IMG/VR virus record: IMGVR_UViG_3300025889_000520
Coordinates: 1-32,752 of that record
Length of the DNA: 32,752 nucleotides
Source: a virus
Direction: 5' to 3' (one strand)
In this document: piece after piece, positions 3,401 to 24,565 of the stretch
How the letters are laid out: the number at the start of each line of letters is the position of its first letter
Numbering within the stretch: the first letter of the stretch is position 1
Notes under the pieces: model-generated
The model's input: the letters and a program-made list of their open reading frames with translations, nothing else
What the model was told of the DNA's origin: nothing
The model's database searches: none
Program-made: the position numbers and the translations under genes

Positions 3401-4558
3401 AAGCGCGTAGAAACTGTATTGGTTGGTGGAACTCAATACGGAACCGCAGGAAGATTGGAAATCCGTAGAACCTCTCCCGACCAATGGGGAGAAAGTCAAG
3501 TGCTAACCAACCTGCTTCGAGGTTGGCTTGCCCTACGAACCGCGCCTGGAGCAAAACAAATAGGAGATACTTATGCTCGCTACCGAGAGTTTATGTTCCG
3601 CAATAACTCTCGATGGTTTGAGCGTCAGCCGCAGATTGCAGCTCTCGGTAAAGAGGCACGACAGCGCCTACGAGATGTGGACGCTTCTTGGCGCGACGGA
3701 CTAAAAGCTGGTGGTGGCGCTTATACGGACCTAGCCAGAGGGCTAACCAATACCAAGACACAAGTTGCTTACGCTCAGGCGATTGAGCGAGTCTTTGGTA
3801 AATGGAATCGTCTTGGGCGACTAGAAAAAGACGTGCTTGGATATTACGTTCCCTTTGGCCTGTGGATTCGTGCCGCATATTCATTTGTTGCCGTAACGCT
3901 TCCGCGTCACCACCCGATCAAGGCGGCAATCGGTTCTGTTATTGAACAAATGACCGAAGAGGACCGCATCGCATTGGGTCTAAGTATGTTTGGAGATGAG
4001 CGTGTGCCGGACTACCACTTGGGGTCAATACCAATCTCCGAAGACTTCTATTTTCGCCCGCAGTATATGACGAGCTTTGGAATGTTTTCCGATCCCTTCG
4101 CGCAGTTGAGTCGAAGCGTATTGCCGCAGATTGACGGTGTTTTTGCTGCGTTTGAGGGGTTGGATTGGAGGGGAGAAGAACTTGTATCAAGAAGTGGTGA
4201 ACCGTTGGGACAGGAGGAAAAGCTCGGCCTAGCCCTTATCAACTTGGCAACTACGAGTATGCCCCTGCTTTCCCTCGGGCTGCGGATTCTCGGTAACGAT
4301 GCGACAGGACTGATTGCTCGCACCCCCTATCCCGCTGATCCCGAACCACTCTCAAAGCGTTTGGAAACCTTCTTGGGACTTTCTTACCTTGATCGAGAAG
4401 GTATCGAGAACGCTAAGAAATATCGCCGCTCGTATTCAATCCGCGTTCCGGGTGTTCCGGGAGGAAGCGGAAGTTCAACCACCCGCGTTCGTCGCAGGCC
4501 TACAGCCCCCGCCGGTTCTAATTACGTCCCAGGCAGAACCAACGTCAAGGGCTTCTAA
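407..4558 (+). CDS. Large internal virion / ejection-type protein
   Basis: A 1383-residue protein starting at GTG in a TAGTG overlap with the preceding gene. The N-terminus is very basic. Residues about 200-320 are Ala/Lys/Arg-rich and low in complexity, then come hydrophobic stretches (about 315-370 and 385-400) and a long mixed-charge region. A more conserved-looking C-terminal third has aromatic and hydrophobic patches (around LRWLLGNVVDPN and YYVPFGLWIRAAYSF). No catalytic motif was found. Size, composition and position as the last large structural gene before lysis fit the internal core or ejection proteins of podoviruses, or a polyvalent virion protein. That role is inference from context; residue-level homology is not recognised. 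Confidence 0.6.
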   Translation: MPGPTYKGRTTRKKVKRKPAASGFANAREAAMYGGSKSDRRQKAAKVERSLRTGRRTSAVDRYRRLGPDRISAREEAIALRTLAREATTPEEWRKLQEESATGFALPELEKGIEARRASDPAKNEGDGGSFVGDALEVLMEVDRFARKVGPGMAAFDLAKNVPSVTNIQAPAALDFSQFGGFENKNKSLQDDIDDASLLVGTGAAAGLARQALKAGARKAAPKVQRVVGEAAEEGVKGSGSGVRGATSRATQGAKGKAKQVAEPVTKSRPAQSAKAATERVKSTRAKVTAATPKPIKTATKAVTWPVRGRNKVWKSAAVLTGANVAGSIPGAVVEGDPLKPLRVVLKPSEGIGTQAVVGAAVALSPTEITDNFFKDLAELPTAIIPSLYLTGDAVVKAVNGNDEELTAMMKDFVENGFLPNVVQGDWEGAREAFERHPLYAALEVSGGYAVVGRGAGAVARSGAAGKKAKSAASTKREDLKIAPGLAAEQRYSKNLITKGFQVLGERKKVRRGEDPFQATPRKAEKELEQQAKTVASGQEGMRRANREEARQVLAKDRRRGDPRTGARWEAPKSLQDIAVFFLDGTVRQADTWREDLSGALARFEAERTQAKVAEKNGESQWTGAQFNENLRNIKDIRKALKNATDADAAKMVEVRTTMREFQDPQMAEIIDRGAYDATQFRTARARPYAVAHMGARWEPRFDNGEGKQRGALVDESGNKISLSQIEARMARDEVDPAFVTQRPGFRGAKGNFYQAASFVKGRRGSIPKAKRTGRASEAGLFDASLESAVEQLISSTTLLDRLKGMDKMFAWAAIRESGADGAPAIKFENRMKADDAIKSPEDFGLPTNIPLKAVRITPVGSTAGERQAAQRFLDDEAKQTDNPNISQPSEDVRALERLDQELLRKTTDDGPGEWIVVPEKVFDVVEALAAPQNTIGKVVASYANLFKGVILPVSLRWLLGNVVDPNLRSAIAGLTPLDWVVGQRLLAELRKYDPDEAKRVETVLVGGTQYGTAGRLEIRRTSPDQWGESQVLTNLLRGWLALRTAPGAKQIGDTYARYREFMFRNNSRWFERQPQIAALGKEARQRLRDVDASWRDGLKAGGGAYTDLARGLTNTKTQVAYAQAIERVFGKWNRLGRLEKDVLGYYVPFGLWIRAAYSFVAVTLPRHHPIKAAIGSVIEQMTEEDRIALGLSMFGDERVPDYHLGSIPISEDFYFRPQYMTSFGMFSDPFAQLSRSVLPQIDGVFAAFEGLDWRGEELVSRSGEPLGQEEKLGLALINLATTSMPLLSLGLRILGNDATGLIARTPYPADPEPLSKRLETFLGLSYLDREGIENAKKYRRSYSIRVPGVPGGSGSSTTRVRRRPTAPAGSNYVPGRTNVKGF

Positions 4559-4580: not shown

Positions 4581-4796
4581 ATGGCAGCCGCAAGACCCCC
4601 CAGACACCCAGATCAAGACCGACTCTCTTACCTAGAAACCGCAGTAGCCGTTCACGATACGCAGATCGAGGGCTTGGACGAGGACGTGCGTGATCTCAGC
4701 GAAGCAATCCGAGGATTACGGCAAGCGATTATTGGCTTTGCCCTTACGGTTGCGGCGAGCGCCGCGATCCTAGTCTTCGGAATCAGCCAGGTCTAA
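4581..4796 (+). CDS. Small coiled-coil protein with one C-terminal membrane helix
   Basis: A 71-residue protein. I chose the ATG at 4581 over upstream in-frame codons because they lie inside the previous gene and AGAGAAAGA precedes this ATG. Residues about 14-46 form a charged amphipathic helix (TQIEGLDEDVRDLSEAIRGL). Residues about 48-70 are one transmembrane helix (IIGFALTVAASAAILVFGI). This layout resembles XhlA/hemolysin-like or spanin-like accessory proteins found near phage lysis genes. A lysis accessory role or a small virion membrane protein are both possible. It is coupled to the next gene by a TAATG overlap. Confidence 0.65.
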   Translation: MAAARPPRHPDQDRLSYLETAVAVHDTQIEGLDEDVRDLSEAIRGLRQAIIGFALTVAASAAILVFGISQV

Positions 4797-5134
4797 TGGC
4801 CGCTTGGCAGACAAAAGCGGGCAAGAACCCGAAGGGTGGACTCAATGCCGCAGGTCGAGCATCGCTTCGGGCGCAGGGACAGAACATTCGCCCCGGCGTA
4901 AGAAACTATTCCTCCGCTTCACCCGCCGATAAGCAGCGATGGGTTTCGTGGGCGCGACGGTTCTACACGAACCCGAGCGGTCCAATGACCGACGCTAAGG
5001 GGCGACCCACCCGCCTAGCCCTAACCGCTAGAGCGTGGGGCGAGCCGGTGCCGAAGAGCCGTGAAGCAGCTCAGGCGATTGCTCGCAAGGCGAAGGTTCG
5101 ACAGGCTCGCTTGAAGTCCGTAAAGCGGGTCTGA
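4796..5134 (+). CDS. Small basic phage protein with NPKGGLNAAGR motif (DUF6321-like)
   Basis: A 112-residue, strongly basic protein starting at ATG in a TAATG overlap. The N-terminal KNPKGGLNAAGR, then PGVRNYSSASPADKQRWVSWARRFY and KGRPTRLALTARAWGEP, match a small family I recall from marine and freshwater phages (I believe DUF6321), usually encoded among structural genes. Function is unknown; RNA or DNA contact or a virion-associated role is likely given the charge. It is the last gene before a run of hairpins, consistent with the end of a transcription unit. Confidence 0.6.
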   Translation: MAAWQTKAGKNPKGGLNAAGRASLRAQGQNIRPGVRNYSSASPADKQRWVSWARRFYTNPSGPMTDAKGRPTRLALTARAWGEPVPKSREAAQAIARKAKVRQARLKSVKRV

Positions 5135-6421: not shown

Positions 6422-6724
6422 CTGAGCCACTATGCGAGGGGGAGGGCGAAAGAATATGCGGTGCGCGATTGCCTCATTGAACGGGGGTATGAAGTCGTGA
6501 GGGGCGCAGGCTCTAAGGGCGCTGACCTGATCGCAGGTAAGGCAGGCAAGACCTACGCAATCGAGGTCAAGAACACGAAGACCATTTGGAGCGGGTTCGG
6601 CCCCGCTCGCCGTAAAGAGATGCGCCGTATGTGTAAGAGCGCCGGGTGGATCGGGGTGCTAGTTCACTTCGCCCCTGGCGAGACAAAGCCCACTATTGCC
6701 TTCGAGAATGTGTGGCCCGACTGA
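6422..6724 (+). CDS. Holliday-junction-resolvase / VRR-type PD-(D/E)XK nuclease, probably CTG start
   Basis: A small nuclease of 100 residues if started at CTG 6422, or 87 if started at GTG 6461. The core GSKGADLIAGKAGKTYAIEVKNTK has the D...ExK active site of PD-(D/E)XK enzymes, with the GSKG turn typical of HJR-like proteins. The family normally begins with a conserved helix, and the codons before 6461 read SHYARGRAKEYAVRD, which matches that helix. No ATG, GTG or TTG exists between the upstream in-frame stop and this helix, so CTG 6422, with GAAGG about 10 nt upstream, is the best start. It probably resolves branched DNA. It overlaps the next gene by TGATG. Confidence 0.75.
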   Translation: MSHYARGRAKEYAVRDCLIERGYEVVRGAGSKGADLIAGKAGKTYAIEVKNTKTIWSGFGPARRKEMRRMCKSAGWIGVLVHFAPGETKPTIAFENVWPD

Positions 6725-21906: not shown

Positions 21907-21932
21907 TCTTCTCACCTCTTCTTTTCTATTCA

Positions 21933-21956
21933 CCCACCGAGCTTATTCCCGATAGG
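21933..21956 (-). promoter_or_regulatory. AATAG-loop hairpin, copy a
   Basis: Minus strand CCTATCGGG, loop AATAAG, CTCGGTGGG: nine pairs, several G-U. It lies 26 nt before the ATG at 21906 and 4 nt after the tRNA-like element. Its weak pairing is compensated by many wobbles, which suggests the fold is kept. Confidence 0.55.
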
Positions 21957-21960
21957 TAGG

Positions 21961-22007
21961 GCGCACCCCCGGACTCGAACCGGGGCGCGGGCCTGGAACC
22001 CCTGCGC
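21961..22007 (-). ncRNA. tRNA-like three-way-junction element, copy a
   Basis: On the minus strand the closing stem GCGCA/TGCGC encloses a hairpin with stem GGG/CCC and a 7-nt loop TTCCAGG, then a T-arm-like hairpin CCCGG, loop TTCGAGT, CCGGG. The T loop is identical to a canonical tRNA T loop and base 2 of the first loop is T, as at tRNA position 33. There is no D arm and no CCA. Its 5' end overlaps the TAG stop of the preceding gene. Confidence 0.6.
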
Positions 22008-22249
22008 TAGTCGCCAACCCTCTTGTTCTCTGCCCATTCTCTGGCAACCTGCAGCACCTTTTCACCGCCGTCCGTCATAGACATCTCTTCACCCCAATAC
22101 TTCCAGCCGCGGTCAGCGAACTCGGGAAAGACTTCAGTGACGTGGTAATCCACCCGAGGGGCGCAAGGTTCGTGATCCACGACCTCCCCCGTTTCTGAAT
22201 CCACGCTTAGATATCCGCGCACCGTGTAAGACACTCGCCCTATGGCCAT
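22007..22249 (-). CDS. Hypothetical protein
   Basis: An 80-residue protein from ATG 22249, with AGAGGTGAAGA at the standard distance. It begins with a beta-like segment (GRVSYTVRGYLSVDSETGEVVDHE) and ends with a helix (GGEKVLQVAREWAENKRVGD). No family is recognised. It is the first gene after promoter b. Confidence 0.6.
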   Translation of the reverse strand: MAIGRVSYTVRGYLSVDSETGEVVDHEPCAPRVDYHVTEVFPEFADRGWKYWGEEMSMTDGGEKVLQVAREWAENKRVGD

Positions 22250-22279
22250 TCTTCACCTCTTCCCATTCGTATTGACTTA

Positions 22280-22316
22280 CCTCTACACCGTAGCATATGC
22301 GCCGGCGTAGTGTCGC
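22280..22316 (-). promoter_or_regulatory. Leftward promoter b
   Basis: On the minus strand: -35 GCGACA (22316-22311), 18-nt spacer, extended -10 TGC-TACGGT (-10 at 22292-22287). The surrounding 50 nt (22254-22307) are nearly identical to promoter d, with one base inserted or deleted, down to the Shine-Dalgarno. Confidence 0.6.
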
Positions 22317-22322
22317 CACCCC

Positions 22323-22946
22323 TTAGAAGGGAATGGCGACCTCTTCGGCAGATTCCTCTACCGTCAAGACTTCCCGCTTCGCGTCCGGGGTCTTACTTAG
22401 AAGCTCGACCACCGCTTCCACGCTCCGCTTAGGTTTCCGATCTTCAGCGACCACCGCCGCCCGGATCGCTTCCGCTTCCCCCTCGACCAGACTTAGCAGG
22501 GGTTCAGCCTTCTCCGCTTCCAGCATTGGCGGGGCGTTCACCTGTTCCGCCGTGAACACCGGCCAGGGGTAGAACCCCGGCCCTTTCGTGATATATCCGG
22601 CGGCGGTTGCCCCTTTCGGGATCGTCCCGCCCCACCTCTTCCACTCTTGGAAGGTTCCCGCCATCTTCCCCGGCATCTGATACGCGATTAGCGCGGCATT
22701 CGTAGGCGTAGCGTCCGGGTGTAGGCGTATCGCCTTCAGGATCAGCGGCGCGGCCTTCTCGGGGTCCTCTTCCATCCACCCCACCATCGCCCGCAACCTT
22801 TCGGCGTGGTCGTCCCGAGCTTTCCGCTTCTCCGCTTTCGTGCGGAAAGAATGAAGGGGGCGCTTCTCACTCCCCCCCGCTGCTCGGTAAGAATCGCGCA
22901 GGGCGCGGCGCTCGTCCCTCTCGATCACTTCAGCGGCGCTAGGCAT
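22323..22946 (-). CDS. ArdC N-terminal-domain-like protein (putative antirestriction / ssDNA-binding)
   Basis: A 207-residue protein from ATG 22946, overlapping the preceding gene by 8 nt. The central part GTFQEWKRWGGTIPKGATAAGYITKGPGFYPWPVFTAEQV resembles the ArdC N-terminal domain: a helix with W, the K-G turn (RKGEKG in ArdC), then beta strands leading to VF...EQ. ArdC proteins bind single-stranded DNA and protect incoming DNA from restriction. The ArdC metalloprotease half is absent. N- and C-terminal parts are charged helices; the C-terminus EEVAIPF recalls an SSB-like acidic tip. Confidence 0.5.
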   Translation of the reverse strand: MPSAAEVIERDERRALRDSYRAAGGSEKRPLHSFRTKAEKRKARDDHAERLRAMVGWMEEDPEKAAPLILKAIRLHPDATPTNAALIAYQMPGKMAGTFQEWKRWGGTIPKGATAAGYITKGPGFYPWPVFTAEQVNAPPMLEAEKAEPLLSLVEGEAEAIRAAVVAEDRKPKRSVEAVVELLSKTPDAKREVLTVEESAEEVAIPF

Positions 22947-23157
22947 CCTTGCCCCCGCTCACCCGCTCCAGCTCATACCCGCGCCCGTAAATCTGCACGT
23001 CTTCCATCTCCAGGGCGGGGGCATAAATGACCTCGACCGTTTGCGACGAGATCGGCAAGGTGAACACTCTCACCTCTACGACCTCACCCGTTCCGCCTTC
23101 TTGGTCCCGCACGATATCGCCGGGGCGCAGGTCTTCTACCTTTACCTTCTCGCTCAT
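22939..23157 (-). CDS. Small beta-rich protein
   Basis: A 72-residue protein from ATG 23157 at the conserved distance after AAAGGTGAGAAG. It reads as a small beta barrel (VEDLRPGDIVRDQEGGTGEVVEVRVFTLPISSQTVEVIYAP), like KOW- or Sm-type folds, ending in YELERVSGGKDA. Function is unknown. It overlaps the ArdC-like gene, so the two are coupled. Confidence 0.6.
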   Translation of the reverse strand: MSEKVKVEDLRPGDIVRDQEGGTGEVVEVRVFTLPISSQTVEVIYAPALEMEDVQIYGRGYELERVSGGKDA

Positions 23158-23177
23158 CTTCTCACCTTTCCTATTCA

Positions 23178-23201
23178 CCCCCCCGCCCTATTGCGAGGGG
23201 G
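23178..23201 (-). promoter_or_regulatory. AATAG-loop hairpin, copy c
   Basis: Minus strand CCCCCTCGC, loop AATAGG, GCGGGGGGG: nine pairs with one G-U. It lies 20 nt before the ATG at 23157 and 3 nt after the tRNA-like element. Confidence 0.65.
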
Positions 23202-23204
23202 AAA

Positions 23205-23254
23205 CCCGCGCCGCCGGACTCGAACCGGCCAGGGGCATCTAACCCCGGCGCAGG
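23205..23254 (-). ncRNA. tRNA-like three-way-junction element, copy c
   Basis: On the minus strand the closing stem CCTGCGCC/GGCGCGGG (8 bp, one G-U) encloses GGGG, loop TTAGATG, CCCC, then 2 nt, then GCCGG, loop TTCGAGT, CCGGC. All helices abut with no spare bases except the 2-nt linker. This is the geometry of a tRNA lacking the D arm; the T arm is canonical. It begins 12 nt after the stop of the gene at 23267. Confidence 0.7.
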
Positions 23255-23266
23255 AAACCCCGCCCC

Positions 23267-23542
23267 CTAAACCCGCAGGGCGTCCCGCAGGTTTCGCCAA
23301 TCTTCCCGCCCCTGCGGGGTGCGGTAATCCCTTTCGCTTTCGTGAACCCTTTCGCGCACTTGCGACTTGTCCGGGTAGCGGGTGGCATCTGTCCCGTCAT
23401 ACCCCGGCGCGGTCAGGGTGAACCCGTCTATCTCTTCCCCCCGGAAATAGACGCTAGTCCACTCGCCGCCATACCAGACATAAGTCCGGCCCGATCCGCG
23501 AAAGTGCCACCGCCCCGCTACCTTCTCGCCTTCTCTCGCCAT
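23267..23542 (-). CDS. Hypothetical protein
   Basis: A 91-residue protein from ATG 23542 at the conserved distance after AAGAGGTGAGAAGA. It has an aromatic beta-rich first half (WHFRGSGRTYVWYGGEWTSVYFRGEEIDGF) and a charged helical end. No family is recognised. It is the first gene after promoter d. Confidence 0.6.
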   Translation of the reverse strand: MAREGEKVAGRWHFRGSGRTYVWYGGEWTSVYFRGEEIDGFTLTAPGYDGTDATRYPDKSQVRERVHESERDYRTPQGREDWRNLRDALRV

Positions 23543-23576
23543 TCTTCTCACCTCTTCCTATTCGTATTTGACTTAC

Positions 23577-23611
23577 CTCTACACCGTAGCACATACACCG
23601 GCGGCGCACAA
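23577..23611 (-). promoter_or_regulatory. Leftward promoter d
   Basis: On the minus strand: -35 TTGTGC (23611-23606), 17-nt spacer, extended -10 TGC-TACGGT (-10 at 23588-23583). It is a near-identical copy of promoter b and is followed by the same leader into AGGAAGAGGTGAGAAGA. Confidence 0.65.
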
Positions 23612-23634
23612 TCCCGCCGCCCCTCCTCTTCCAC

Positions 23635-23808
23635 CTATGCCGCCCGGCTGCTCGACGAGCTCAGATAGCCGCCCGCCCTTAGCCTTTGCAACCGTTCCAC
23701 GCATCGCCGGCAGGGTCCAGGACCCCTAACCGCCCCCCGCCCGCAACCTTTGCAGGGGTGGTATTCGCTCAGATACCGGGCGACCTGCGCCCCTTCTCCT
23801 CTTCTCAC
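23635..23808 (-). CDS. Small zinc-finger protein (GTG start)
   Basis: A 57-residue protein. GTG 23808 occupies exactly the place that ATG has in the other leaders, after AAGAGGTGAGAAG. CKGCGRGAVRGPGPCRRC is a compact four-Cys zinc knuckle, and the tail is SSSSS-rich. It is probably a nucleic-acid-binding or protein-interaction module. Confidence 0.55.
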   Translation of the reverse strand: MRRGEGAQVARYLSEYHPCKGCGRGAVRGPGPCRRCVERLQRLRAGGYLSSSSSRAA

Positions 23809-23828
23809 CTTCTCACCTCTTCTATTCA

Positions 23829-23853
23829 CCCGCCGGGCCTATTCCCGGACGGG
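23829..23853 (-). promoter_or_regulatory. AATAG-loop hairpin, copy e
   Basis: Minus strand CCCG-T-CCGGG, loop AATAGG, CCCGGCGGG, with one bulged T. It lies 20 nt before the GTG at 23808 and 3 nt after the tRNA-like element. Confidence 0.62.
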
Positions 23854-23856
23854 CAG

Positions 23857-23906
23857 AGCGCGGGCCGGGGCACGATCCCGGCAGGGGCCACTATCCCCCC
23901 CGCGCT
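23857..23906 (-). ncRNA. tRNA-like three-way-junction element, copy e
   Basis: On the minus strand the closing stem AGCGCGG/CCGCGCT (7 bp) encloses GGGG, loop ATAGTGG, CCCC, one linker base, and GCCGGG, loop ATCGTGC, CCCGGC. Stem sequences differ from copies c and f but the fold and loop lengths (7 and 7) are the same. It begins 11 nt after the stop of the gene at 23918. Confidence 0.65.
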
Positions 23907-23917
23907 AACCTGCGCCG

Positions 23918-24208
23918 CTATTCGGGGCGCAGGTATTCCCCCCGTGACCATTGACCGTTGATCTTCCCCTCCCACCCGATTAGGTAGGCGGGGCGGGCGG
24001 CGAAGGGGGGCAGAATCTCCCCCGCCATACTACGCCGCACATATTCGCCCGGGGTTGCCGGGGCGGAATCTCTTACCACCCGCAATACCTCCCCGGTTGC
24101 GTGACCGTGATGATGCCTAACCCGGTCCCCCCGATAGAAGATCCCCCGCGCATTGTGCGCCTTCCGTTGCCGGGCGAATACCTCTGCCCACTCGCTTTCG
24201 GATATCAT
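23918..24208 (-). CDS. Hypothetical protein
   Basis: A 96-residue protein from ATG 24208, after GGAAGGGGTGAAGA. It has a helical N-terminus (SESEWAEVFARQRKAHNARG), then a His-rich turn (RVRHHHGHATGEVLRVV) and a beta-rich C-terminus (YLIGWEGKINGQWSRGEYL). The small beta domain resembles SH3-like phage proteins, not enough for a family call. Confidence 0.6.
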   Translation of the reverse strand: MISESEWAEVFARQRKAHNARGIFYRGDRVRHHHGHATGEVLRVVRDSAPATPGEYVRRSMAGEILPPFAARPAYLIGWEGKINGQWSRGEYLRPE

Positions 24209-24228
24209 TCTTCACCCCTTCCATTCCA

Positions 24229-24248
24229 CCCCCGCCCTATTGCGGGAG
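24229..24248 (-). promoter_or_regulatory. AATAG-loop hairpin, copy f
   Basis: Minus strand CTCCCGC, loop AATAGG, GCGGGGG: seven pairs with one G-U. It lies 20 nt before the ATG at 24208 and 2 nt after the tRNA-like element. Confidence 0.65.
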
Positions 24249-24250
24249 AG

Positions 24251-24302
24251 TATCGCGCCCCGGTCACGATCCGGGCGCGGGGCATCTAACCCCGGCGCGA
24301 TA
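24251..24302 (-). ncRNA. tRNA-like three-way-junction element, copy f
   Basis: On the minus strand the closing stem TATCGCGCC/GGCGCGATA (9 perfect pairs) encloses GGGG, loop TTAGATG, CCCC (extendable to CGGGG/CCCCG), a short linker and CCCGG, loop ATCGTGA, CCGGG. The closing stem differs from copy c by compensating changes on both sides. It begins 8 nt after the stop of the gene at 24311. Confidence 0.7.
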
Positions 24303-24547: not shown

Positions 24548-24565
24548 CCCCGCACTATTGCGGGA
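24548..24565 (-). promoter_or_regulatory. AATAG-loop hairpin, copy g
   Basis: Minus strand TCCCGC, loop AATAGT, GCGGGG: six pairs with one G-U. It lies 21 nt before the ATG at 24526, without a tRNA-like element in front; a promoter takes that place. Confidence 0.6.

Follow-up and report, generated by a model that had tools for sequence, protein, structure and literature searches.

An acceptor stem, T stem and T loop suffice for cleavage of model hairpins by E. coli RNase P RNA (PMC11143913), and RNase P can dispense with the D loop while requiring a T loop or a similar structure (PMC4919913). According to references cited in PMC11143913, RNAs of phages and of operons can also serve as natural substrates. 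The mascRNA and menRNA elements are tRNA-like structures within longer transcripts that combine a reduced D arm with a tRNA T loop; RNase P and RNase Z, which mascRNA recruits through mimicry of the tRNA elbow, cleave them (PMC11693755). Here we analyse a 32.8-kb viral record, IMGVR_UViG_3300025889_000520 (the window, meaning the whole of this stretch), in which four tRNA-like elements, copies A to D, lie on the minus strand inside a leftward operon of small genes. Comparison with a related phage contig confirms that the four elements are a genuine recurring RNA fold, and similar elements form a large family in actinophages. Like the RNase P model substrates, these elements combine an acceptor-like stem, a T stem and a T loop; natural RNase P substrates differ in being single known sites and not a family repeated over most long junctions of an operon, and cleavage of the elements described here is a prediction. 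By contrast with the window elements, mascRNA and menRNA have a four-way junction, are eukaryotic and occur as single copies.

An earlier note, made from the letters of the window alone, had described four minus-strand copies with their loops, and our analysis reproduced their positions, strand and loops (Table 1). Each begins 0, 12, 11 or 8 nucleotides (nt) after a stop codon and is followed a few nucleotides on by a second hairpin, as that note had also reported. In single-copy folding against shuffled sequences, B and D fold much better than their shuffles (z −3.1 and −2.6), whereas A and C (z −0.35 and −1.4) are indistinct in this GC-rich sequence, so the case for the elements rests on comparison. 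The comparison sequence, a 38-kb related phage contig (L003) about 86% identical to the window across the structural region, carries five copies within the corresponding operon, and a covariance model of the window type (R2) recovers all nine. Counting outward from the T loop, we numbered the combined T-stem and closing-stem helix of each of the nine copies and scored the 7 distinct helices. Pairing is kept in 88 of 91 cells, a value that none of 5,000 shuffles reached (mean 63), and falls to 34–51% when the partners are slid by 1–3 positions; at 10 of the 13 pair positions both sides have changed, bearing out the claim that stem sequences vary on both sides while pairing is retained. The earlier note had named missing covariation and missing copies in related phages as grounds for abandoning the idea; covariation is present, and L003 adds its five copies.

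The nine copies share a coaxial helix of closing stem and T stem with a tRNA-type T loop (G53–C61, T55 C56 G57). The stacked helix is 13 base pairs (bp) long in seven copies and 12 bp in copy A and its L003 counterpart; helix position 14 is unpaired in all nine, and hairpin 1 is inserted at a variable point, 4 to 6 bp away from the T loop. The hairpin-1 insert of the window copies has a stem of 3–5 bp, the shortest case being copy A with 3 bp, which also has one G·G within the coaxial helix. A structural descriptor run over 1.38 Mb of loci matched only these copies and one true tRNA-Lys, and gave one match in 300 shuffles of the operon (0.87 Mb). The likeness to a tRNA T loop that the earlier note had pointed out is exact for A and B (TTCGAGT) but not for C and D. 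In these two and in copy D of L003 the loop reads ATCGTGN, with A54/T58 in a swap of the tRNA T54–A58 pair. In L003, the TAA stop of one gene lies within the 5′ strand of a closing stem (4746–4754), where termination would compete with folding.

A permissive blastn search of the copy A cassette against phage records led to an unannotated intergenic T arm that occurs in many copies per genome in Streptomyces phages, and thereby to an actinophage family that the earlier note had overlooked. The Streptomyces type consists of a 5-bp closing stem, an 11-nt insert of the form A-S-N-G-G-C-A-S′-N-C-N, a 6-bp T stem and the loop TTCGAGN. An alignment of 23 copies (A8) retains every one of the 13 proposed pairs in 100% of cells; its covariation score is 0.587, compared with 0.145 for shuffled and at most 0.10 for slid alignments. 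A pattern scan of viral contigs returned at least 120 stretches. Among 237 distinct cores, the S–S′ pair of the insert is Watson–Crick in 233 (shuffle mean 100) and insert position 9 forms a Watson–Crick pair with T-loop position 60 in 227 (shuffle mean 123), while control position pairs do no better than their shuffles. The same two pairs hold in 86 and 82 of the 90 cores that fall outside the search pattern, so the signal is not produced by that pattern.

The blastn matches fall at 925 places and in 305 records, of which 113 are Streptomyces phages; many Mycobacterium records among them owe their match to weak similarity to a real tRNA-His. Unannotated matches occur in Mycobacterium phages Nilo, Rope and Thumb, Gordonia phage Morgana and Arthrobacter phage DanielleIgnace, and reading of the Nilo, Thumb, Morgana and DanielleIgnace sequences revealed intergenic copies. 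No family copies were found in plasmids. In a strict set of 284 elements, the closing pair is G1–C72 in 272 and the 3′ flank is ACT or ACG in 231, resembling R73–C74 of tRNA. Inserts fall into D-loop-like NGGCA, ATGGTCGNA together with the loop TTCGACT, hairpin and no insert at all. Hairpin inserts are found in DanielleIgnace (GGGTGC-CCGT-TAGG-ACGG-CAG-T arm), in phiScoe10 (locus L153, 8114–8163) and in several viral contigs. The ATGGTCGNA class, which stands apart from the NGGCA class, is represented in Thumb (locus L277, 4751–4791 and 6067–6106) and in loci L233, L243 and L264. One further Thumb junction (L277, 7283–7313) has the insert-free form, a plain 12-bp hairpin with the loop TTCGACT.

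These relatives bear on the identity of hairpin 1. The earlier note had read the fold as an acceptor stem, an anticodon-like arm and a T arm with the D arm absent, and the 7-nt loops of the window (TTCCAGG, TTAGATG and ATAGTGG) do fit the anticodon-loop pattern. The 7-nt length, however, is a feature of the window copies, and 6-nt loops occur in L003 (TTTAGG, ATTAGG and TTAGAG); the loop sequences yield no consistent anticodon, and the corresponding insert of the family is D-loop-like in its main form and absent in another. The NGGCA mini-loop matches the tRNA D loop (G18 G19 N20 A21) and forms the covarying pair with T-loop position 60, and the hairpin inserts of DanielleIgnace and phiScoe10 stand at equivalent junctions. 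Hence we read hairpin 1 as D-like, a stand-in for the D arm, with the anticodon arm as the missing one. We think this assignment rather more probable than not, and the description 'D-armless' is probably wrong; that hairpin 1 is an anticodon-like arm appears unlikely.

The window copies are, with good probability, divergent members of the actinophage family. A model built from Streptomyces copies only (R3) finds window copy A with 29.1 bits (E 3.7e-4) and one L003 copy with 24.1 bits, compared with at most 17.9 bits for 21 real tRNAs, and also finds Mycobacterium, Gordonia and Arthrobacter copies. In the opposite direction, the best outside matches of the window model are mostly family elements, and the 21 tRNAs are absent from its list. 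The L003 hairpin-1 loops are, in addition, close to the TAGG loop of DanielleIgnace. Several observations weigh against kinship or against a shared mode of action. Core family members score 63–73 bits, which makes the 29.1 and 24.1 bits a weak link, and copies B, C and D are not listed by R3 at E values up to 1. The contact between T-loop position 60 and the insert was sought in the nine window and L003 copies and not seen; the window copies have their hairpin in place of the NGGCA insert, and they show neither an R73–C74-like 3′ flank nor a preference for G1–C72. In C and D the T loop has A54/T58 in place of T54/A58. The coaxial helix measures 11 bp in the Streptomyces type versus 12–13 bp in the window and L003 copies, giving no single fixed ruler. 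Phages related through the portal protein (~40–70% identity) contain no convincing copy in the sequence examined. A search of viral contigs for the exact hairpin GGGGTTAGATGCCCC gave 27 chance loci, all without an element, the ribosome-binding site (RBS) pattern gave 33 viral stretches in which the model found nothing convincing beyond L003, and no prophage relative was found in genome contigs.

Family elements lie on the coding strand, mostly a few to ~40 nt past a stop codon, and almost all are intergenic: 16 of 17 in Lannister and phiScoe10, all 10 in Nilo, Thumb and DanielleIgnace, and 9 of 10 in Aaronocolus. The two non-intergenic exceptions (L153 1254 and L280 3713) overlap the start of an annotated coding sequence, which may be misplaced. 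In four actinophage loci, 33 of 41 junctions with a gap of at least 70 nt contain an element, compared with 2 of 37 shorter or overlapping ones. The tRNA likeness and the idea of punctuation between genes thus hold up from the earlier note and reach far beyond this phage. Elements at gene borders could instead be joints at the DNA level that allow genes to be swapped by homologous recombination, and cassettes A and D indeed show 92–93% identity in a comparison of the window with L003, yet are flanked on both sides by non-homologous genes. Yet paralogous copies within one genome differ greatly in stem sequence and still pair, covariation that includes a loop–loop tertiary pair requires folding of a single strand, and the strand always follows transcription; gene swapping can be a by-product, and a primary role in it is improbable. 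The density of the family, with up to ten copies per 12 kb, might suit decoys, tRNA-elbow mimics that tie up or block tRNA-acting enzymes of the host or defence nucleases that cleave tRNA. Strict placement at junctions would be superfluous for a decoy, and the elements lack the anticodon arm, at which tRNA-cleaving nucleases of defence systems usually strike; we judge this role slightly more improbable still.

As hairpins located behind genes, the elements also recall integron-like attC sites, whose consensus half-sites are RYYYAAC and GTTRRRY, and transcription terminators. GTTAGAT of copies B and D fits the GTTRRRY half-site. The half-site is absent in A and C, inspection of the other end gave no RYYYAAC partner, and the integrase detected belongs to the phage tyrosine type; no T run follows the elements and none of them was called as a terminator. 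Both identities can be set aside with near certainty.

As the best explanation overall, we propose that elbow-recognising tRNA enzymes, RNase P and RNase Z, read the junction elements and separate the cistrons, an account that stands an equal chance of proving right or wrong. Each element would act in cis as an mRNA mimic of the top half, or elbow, of a tRNA, with its closing 'acceptor' stem stacked on the T stem, a tRNA-type T loop, an inserted hairpin in place of the D arm and no anticodon arm. The elements would mark junctions within the polycistronic transcript of the small-gene operon, and host enzymes would recognise the elbow and measure the acceptor–T helix, RNase P acting on the 5′ side and RNase Z or another nuclease on the 3′ side. 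Cistrons would thereby be separated, such that the upstream message ends near the element and the downstream message begins with the AATAG-loop hairpin described below and its RBS. At the L003 junction where the stop codon lies inside the closing stem, the terminating ribosome may delay folding.

A stack of about 12 bp capped by a T loop, as in RNase P and RNase Z substrates, is present in both types, at 12–13 bp in the window and L003 and at 11 bp in the Streptomyces type. The insert-free Thumb hairpin has the shape of the acceptor/T-stem model substrates, which we count in favour of RNase P. The main rival holds that the elements are passive mRNA structures, a stable 3′ barrier and a translational insulator separating cistrons, perhaps with a protein of the phage or host bound to them, without cutting by tRNA enzymes. 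Their place directly behind stop codons and ahead of RBS hairpins fits this view, the L003 closing stem that contains the TAA stop would be opened by a terminating ribosome, and RNase P end signals are missing from the window copies, the tRNA-like 3′ end and G1–C72 pair being present in most Streptomyces-type copies but not in those of the window. Against a passive role, a plain hairpin would suffice for it, and T55-C56-G57, NGGCA and the covarying loop–loop contact would be left unexplained; we hold it to be doubtful. Recruitment of tRNA enzymes and cleavage at the elements, to which the analogy with known substrates points, are predicted with somewhat less than even confidence. On a bolder reading, also held with somewhat less than even confidence, the elements make up a widespread kind of phage RNA that has not been described before. 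They would be mimics of the tRNA elbow, with an acceptor stem, a D-like loop and a T arm, that occupy most of the long junctions in small-gene operons of actinobacteriophages and let host tRNA-processing enzymes cut the polycistronic message into separate units. They may, on the same guarded footing, be a bacterial-virus counterpart of mitochondrial tRNA punctuation, of which the window would hold a divergent hairpin-insert form accompanied by a 5′ AATAG hairpin.

Neither the window nor the Streptomyces loci gave a match above the threshold of any Rfam family. Among models of fitting shape, mascRNA-menRNA (RF01684) comes closest, with 17.1 and 16.8 bits for window copies A and B against a cut-off of 42.5 (E 5–6) and with tRNA-Sec beside it for copy B; it is also nearest for one Streptomyces copy, and scores overall are 16.8–18.6 bits. 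With tRNAs and the tRNA-like domain of transfer-messenger RNA (tmRNA) the elements share the T-arm invariants and, in the wider family, a D-loop-like GG; they differ in being shorter and without an anticodon arm, and they go undetected as tRNA or tmRNA except for false calls by ARAGORN. One such call, a 'tRNA-Gly' at 23204–23291 over copy B, is a false positive that reaches 21.8 bits with the tRNA-Sec model against a cut-off of 47. ARAGORN likewise places a false tRNA gene over an element at 4431–4513 of L153, and elements of this kind may account for some of the tRNAs annotated in phages.

By position, the SAS and ESAS repeats of cluster K phages come closest to the elements among phage repeats, in that they occupy large intergenic gaps ahead of small non-structural genes (PMC3203893). 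SAS is, however, a 13-bp sequence, GGGATAGGAGCCC, located 3–7 bp from the start codon (PMC3203893), and ESAS, an inverted repeat of 17 bp, includes a putative promoter (PMC11373665). These features are not found in the window elements, and no model match at E < 0.1 was obtained in Anaya or Pixie. Some window copies, with two T-loop-like hairpins, recall the interdigitated double T-loop motif of RNase P, the T-box and the L1 stalk, but the length of the hairpin-1 loops is not constant and those of L003 no longer show the pattern. The open-access literature that we searched contains no description of such elements.

The phage of the window is likely to infect an actinobacterial host, judging from its terminase and portal, which share ~20–33% identity with Arthrobacter, Microbacterium and Cellulosimicrobium phage proteins and are thus distant from them. 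No Pfam or PHROG function could be assigned to the operon genes (Table 1). Every long junction of the window operon holds either a tRNA-like element or one of two copies of a promoter-like repeat, ~TTGYGN-17-TACGGT, and the other element-free junctions overlap. The repeat has L003 counterparts at about 5020–5074 and 6589–6625; it may function as a promoter, and a consensus promoter scan made no call at 23568–23603.

Downstream of every copy comes first a hairpin whose loop is AATAGG or AATAAG and then an RBS. The hexaloop (AATAGG, AATAAG or AATAGT) is nearly fixed while the stems covary, making this a second structured RNA element of the operon. All 11 AATAG-loop hairpins with at least 5 bp across the window and L003, six of them in L003, lie inside this operon, and one per phage stands at the operon start without a tRNA-like element. 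Their role is perhaps protein binding or 5′ protection.

Table 1. Elements, hairpins, genes and promoter-like repeats of the small-gene operon, in window coordinates (R2, score with the window-type covariance model)
Feature	Coordinates	Strand	Description
Copy A	21961..22007	-	closing GCGCA/TGCGC; hairpin 1 GGG-TTCCAGG-CCC; T arm CCCCGG-TTCGAGT-CCGGGG; R2 53.6 bits
Copy B	23205..23254	-	closing CCTGCGCC/GGCGCGGG; hairpin 1 GGGG-TTAGATG-CCCC; T arm GCCGG-TTCGAGT-CCGGC; R2 70.6 bits
Copy C	23857..23906	-	closing AGCGCGGG/CCCGCGCT; hairpin 1 GGGG-ATAGTGG-CCCC; T arm CCGGG-ATCGTGC-CCCGG; R2 65.1 bits
Copy D	24251..24302	-	closing TATCGCGCC/GGCGCGATA; hairpin 1 GGGG-TTAGATG-CCCC; T arm CCGG-ATCGTGA-CCGG; R2 55.5 bits
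AATAAG-loop hairpin after copy A	21931..21958	-	upstream of g8 RBS
AATAGG-loop hairpin after copy B	23178..23201	-	
AATAGG-loop hairpin after copy C	23833..23848	-	
AATAGG-loop hairpin after copy D	24229..24248	-	
AATAGT-loop hairpin, 5′ leader of the operon's first gene	24548..24565	-	no tRNA-like element before it; L003 equivalent 7882-7901
Gene g1, 71 aa	24311..24526	-	upstream of copy D; no homologue among the L003 operon genes compared
Gene g2, 96 aa	23918..24208	-	between copies D and C
Gene g3, 64 aa	23635..23829	-	after copy C
Gene g4, 94 aa	23267..23551	-	before copy B
Gene g5, 79 aa	22939..23178	-	after copy B; overlaps g6
Gene g6, 207 aa	22323..22946	-	no Pfam or PHROG match; 80% identical in L003
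Gene g7, 80 aa	22007..22249	-	TAG stop directly before copy A
Gene g8, 83 aa	21682..21933	-	after copy A
Promoter-like repeat, g3–g4 junction	23568..23603	-	92% identical to 22272-22307; recurs in L003; junction without tRNA-like element
Promoter-like repeat, second copy, g6–g7 junction	22272..22307	-	junction without tRNA-like element

The building block, the top half of a tRNA, is known; a family of it repeated at the operon junctions of DNA phages is, to the extent of our searches, new. The proposal is directly testable beyond an uncultured contig, in the sequenced and culturable phages Lannister, Aaronocolus and Thumb. If true, it would add to annotation an RNA family with a strong and simple covariation signature, and would provide a natural repeated set of RNase P/Z-type sites in phage mRNA as a tool for polycistronic constructs in actinobacteria. 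For the phages themselves, tRNA mimicry would then serve as operon punctuation, and one signal would account for the unexplained 80–120-nt gaps in many actinophage genomes.

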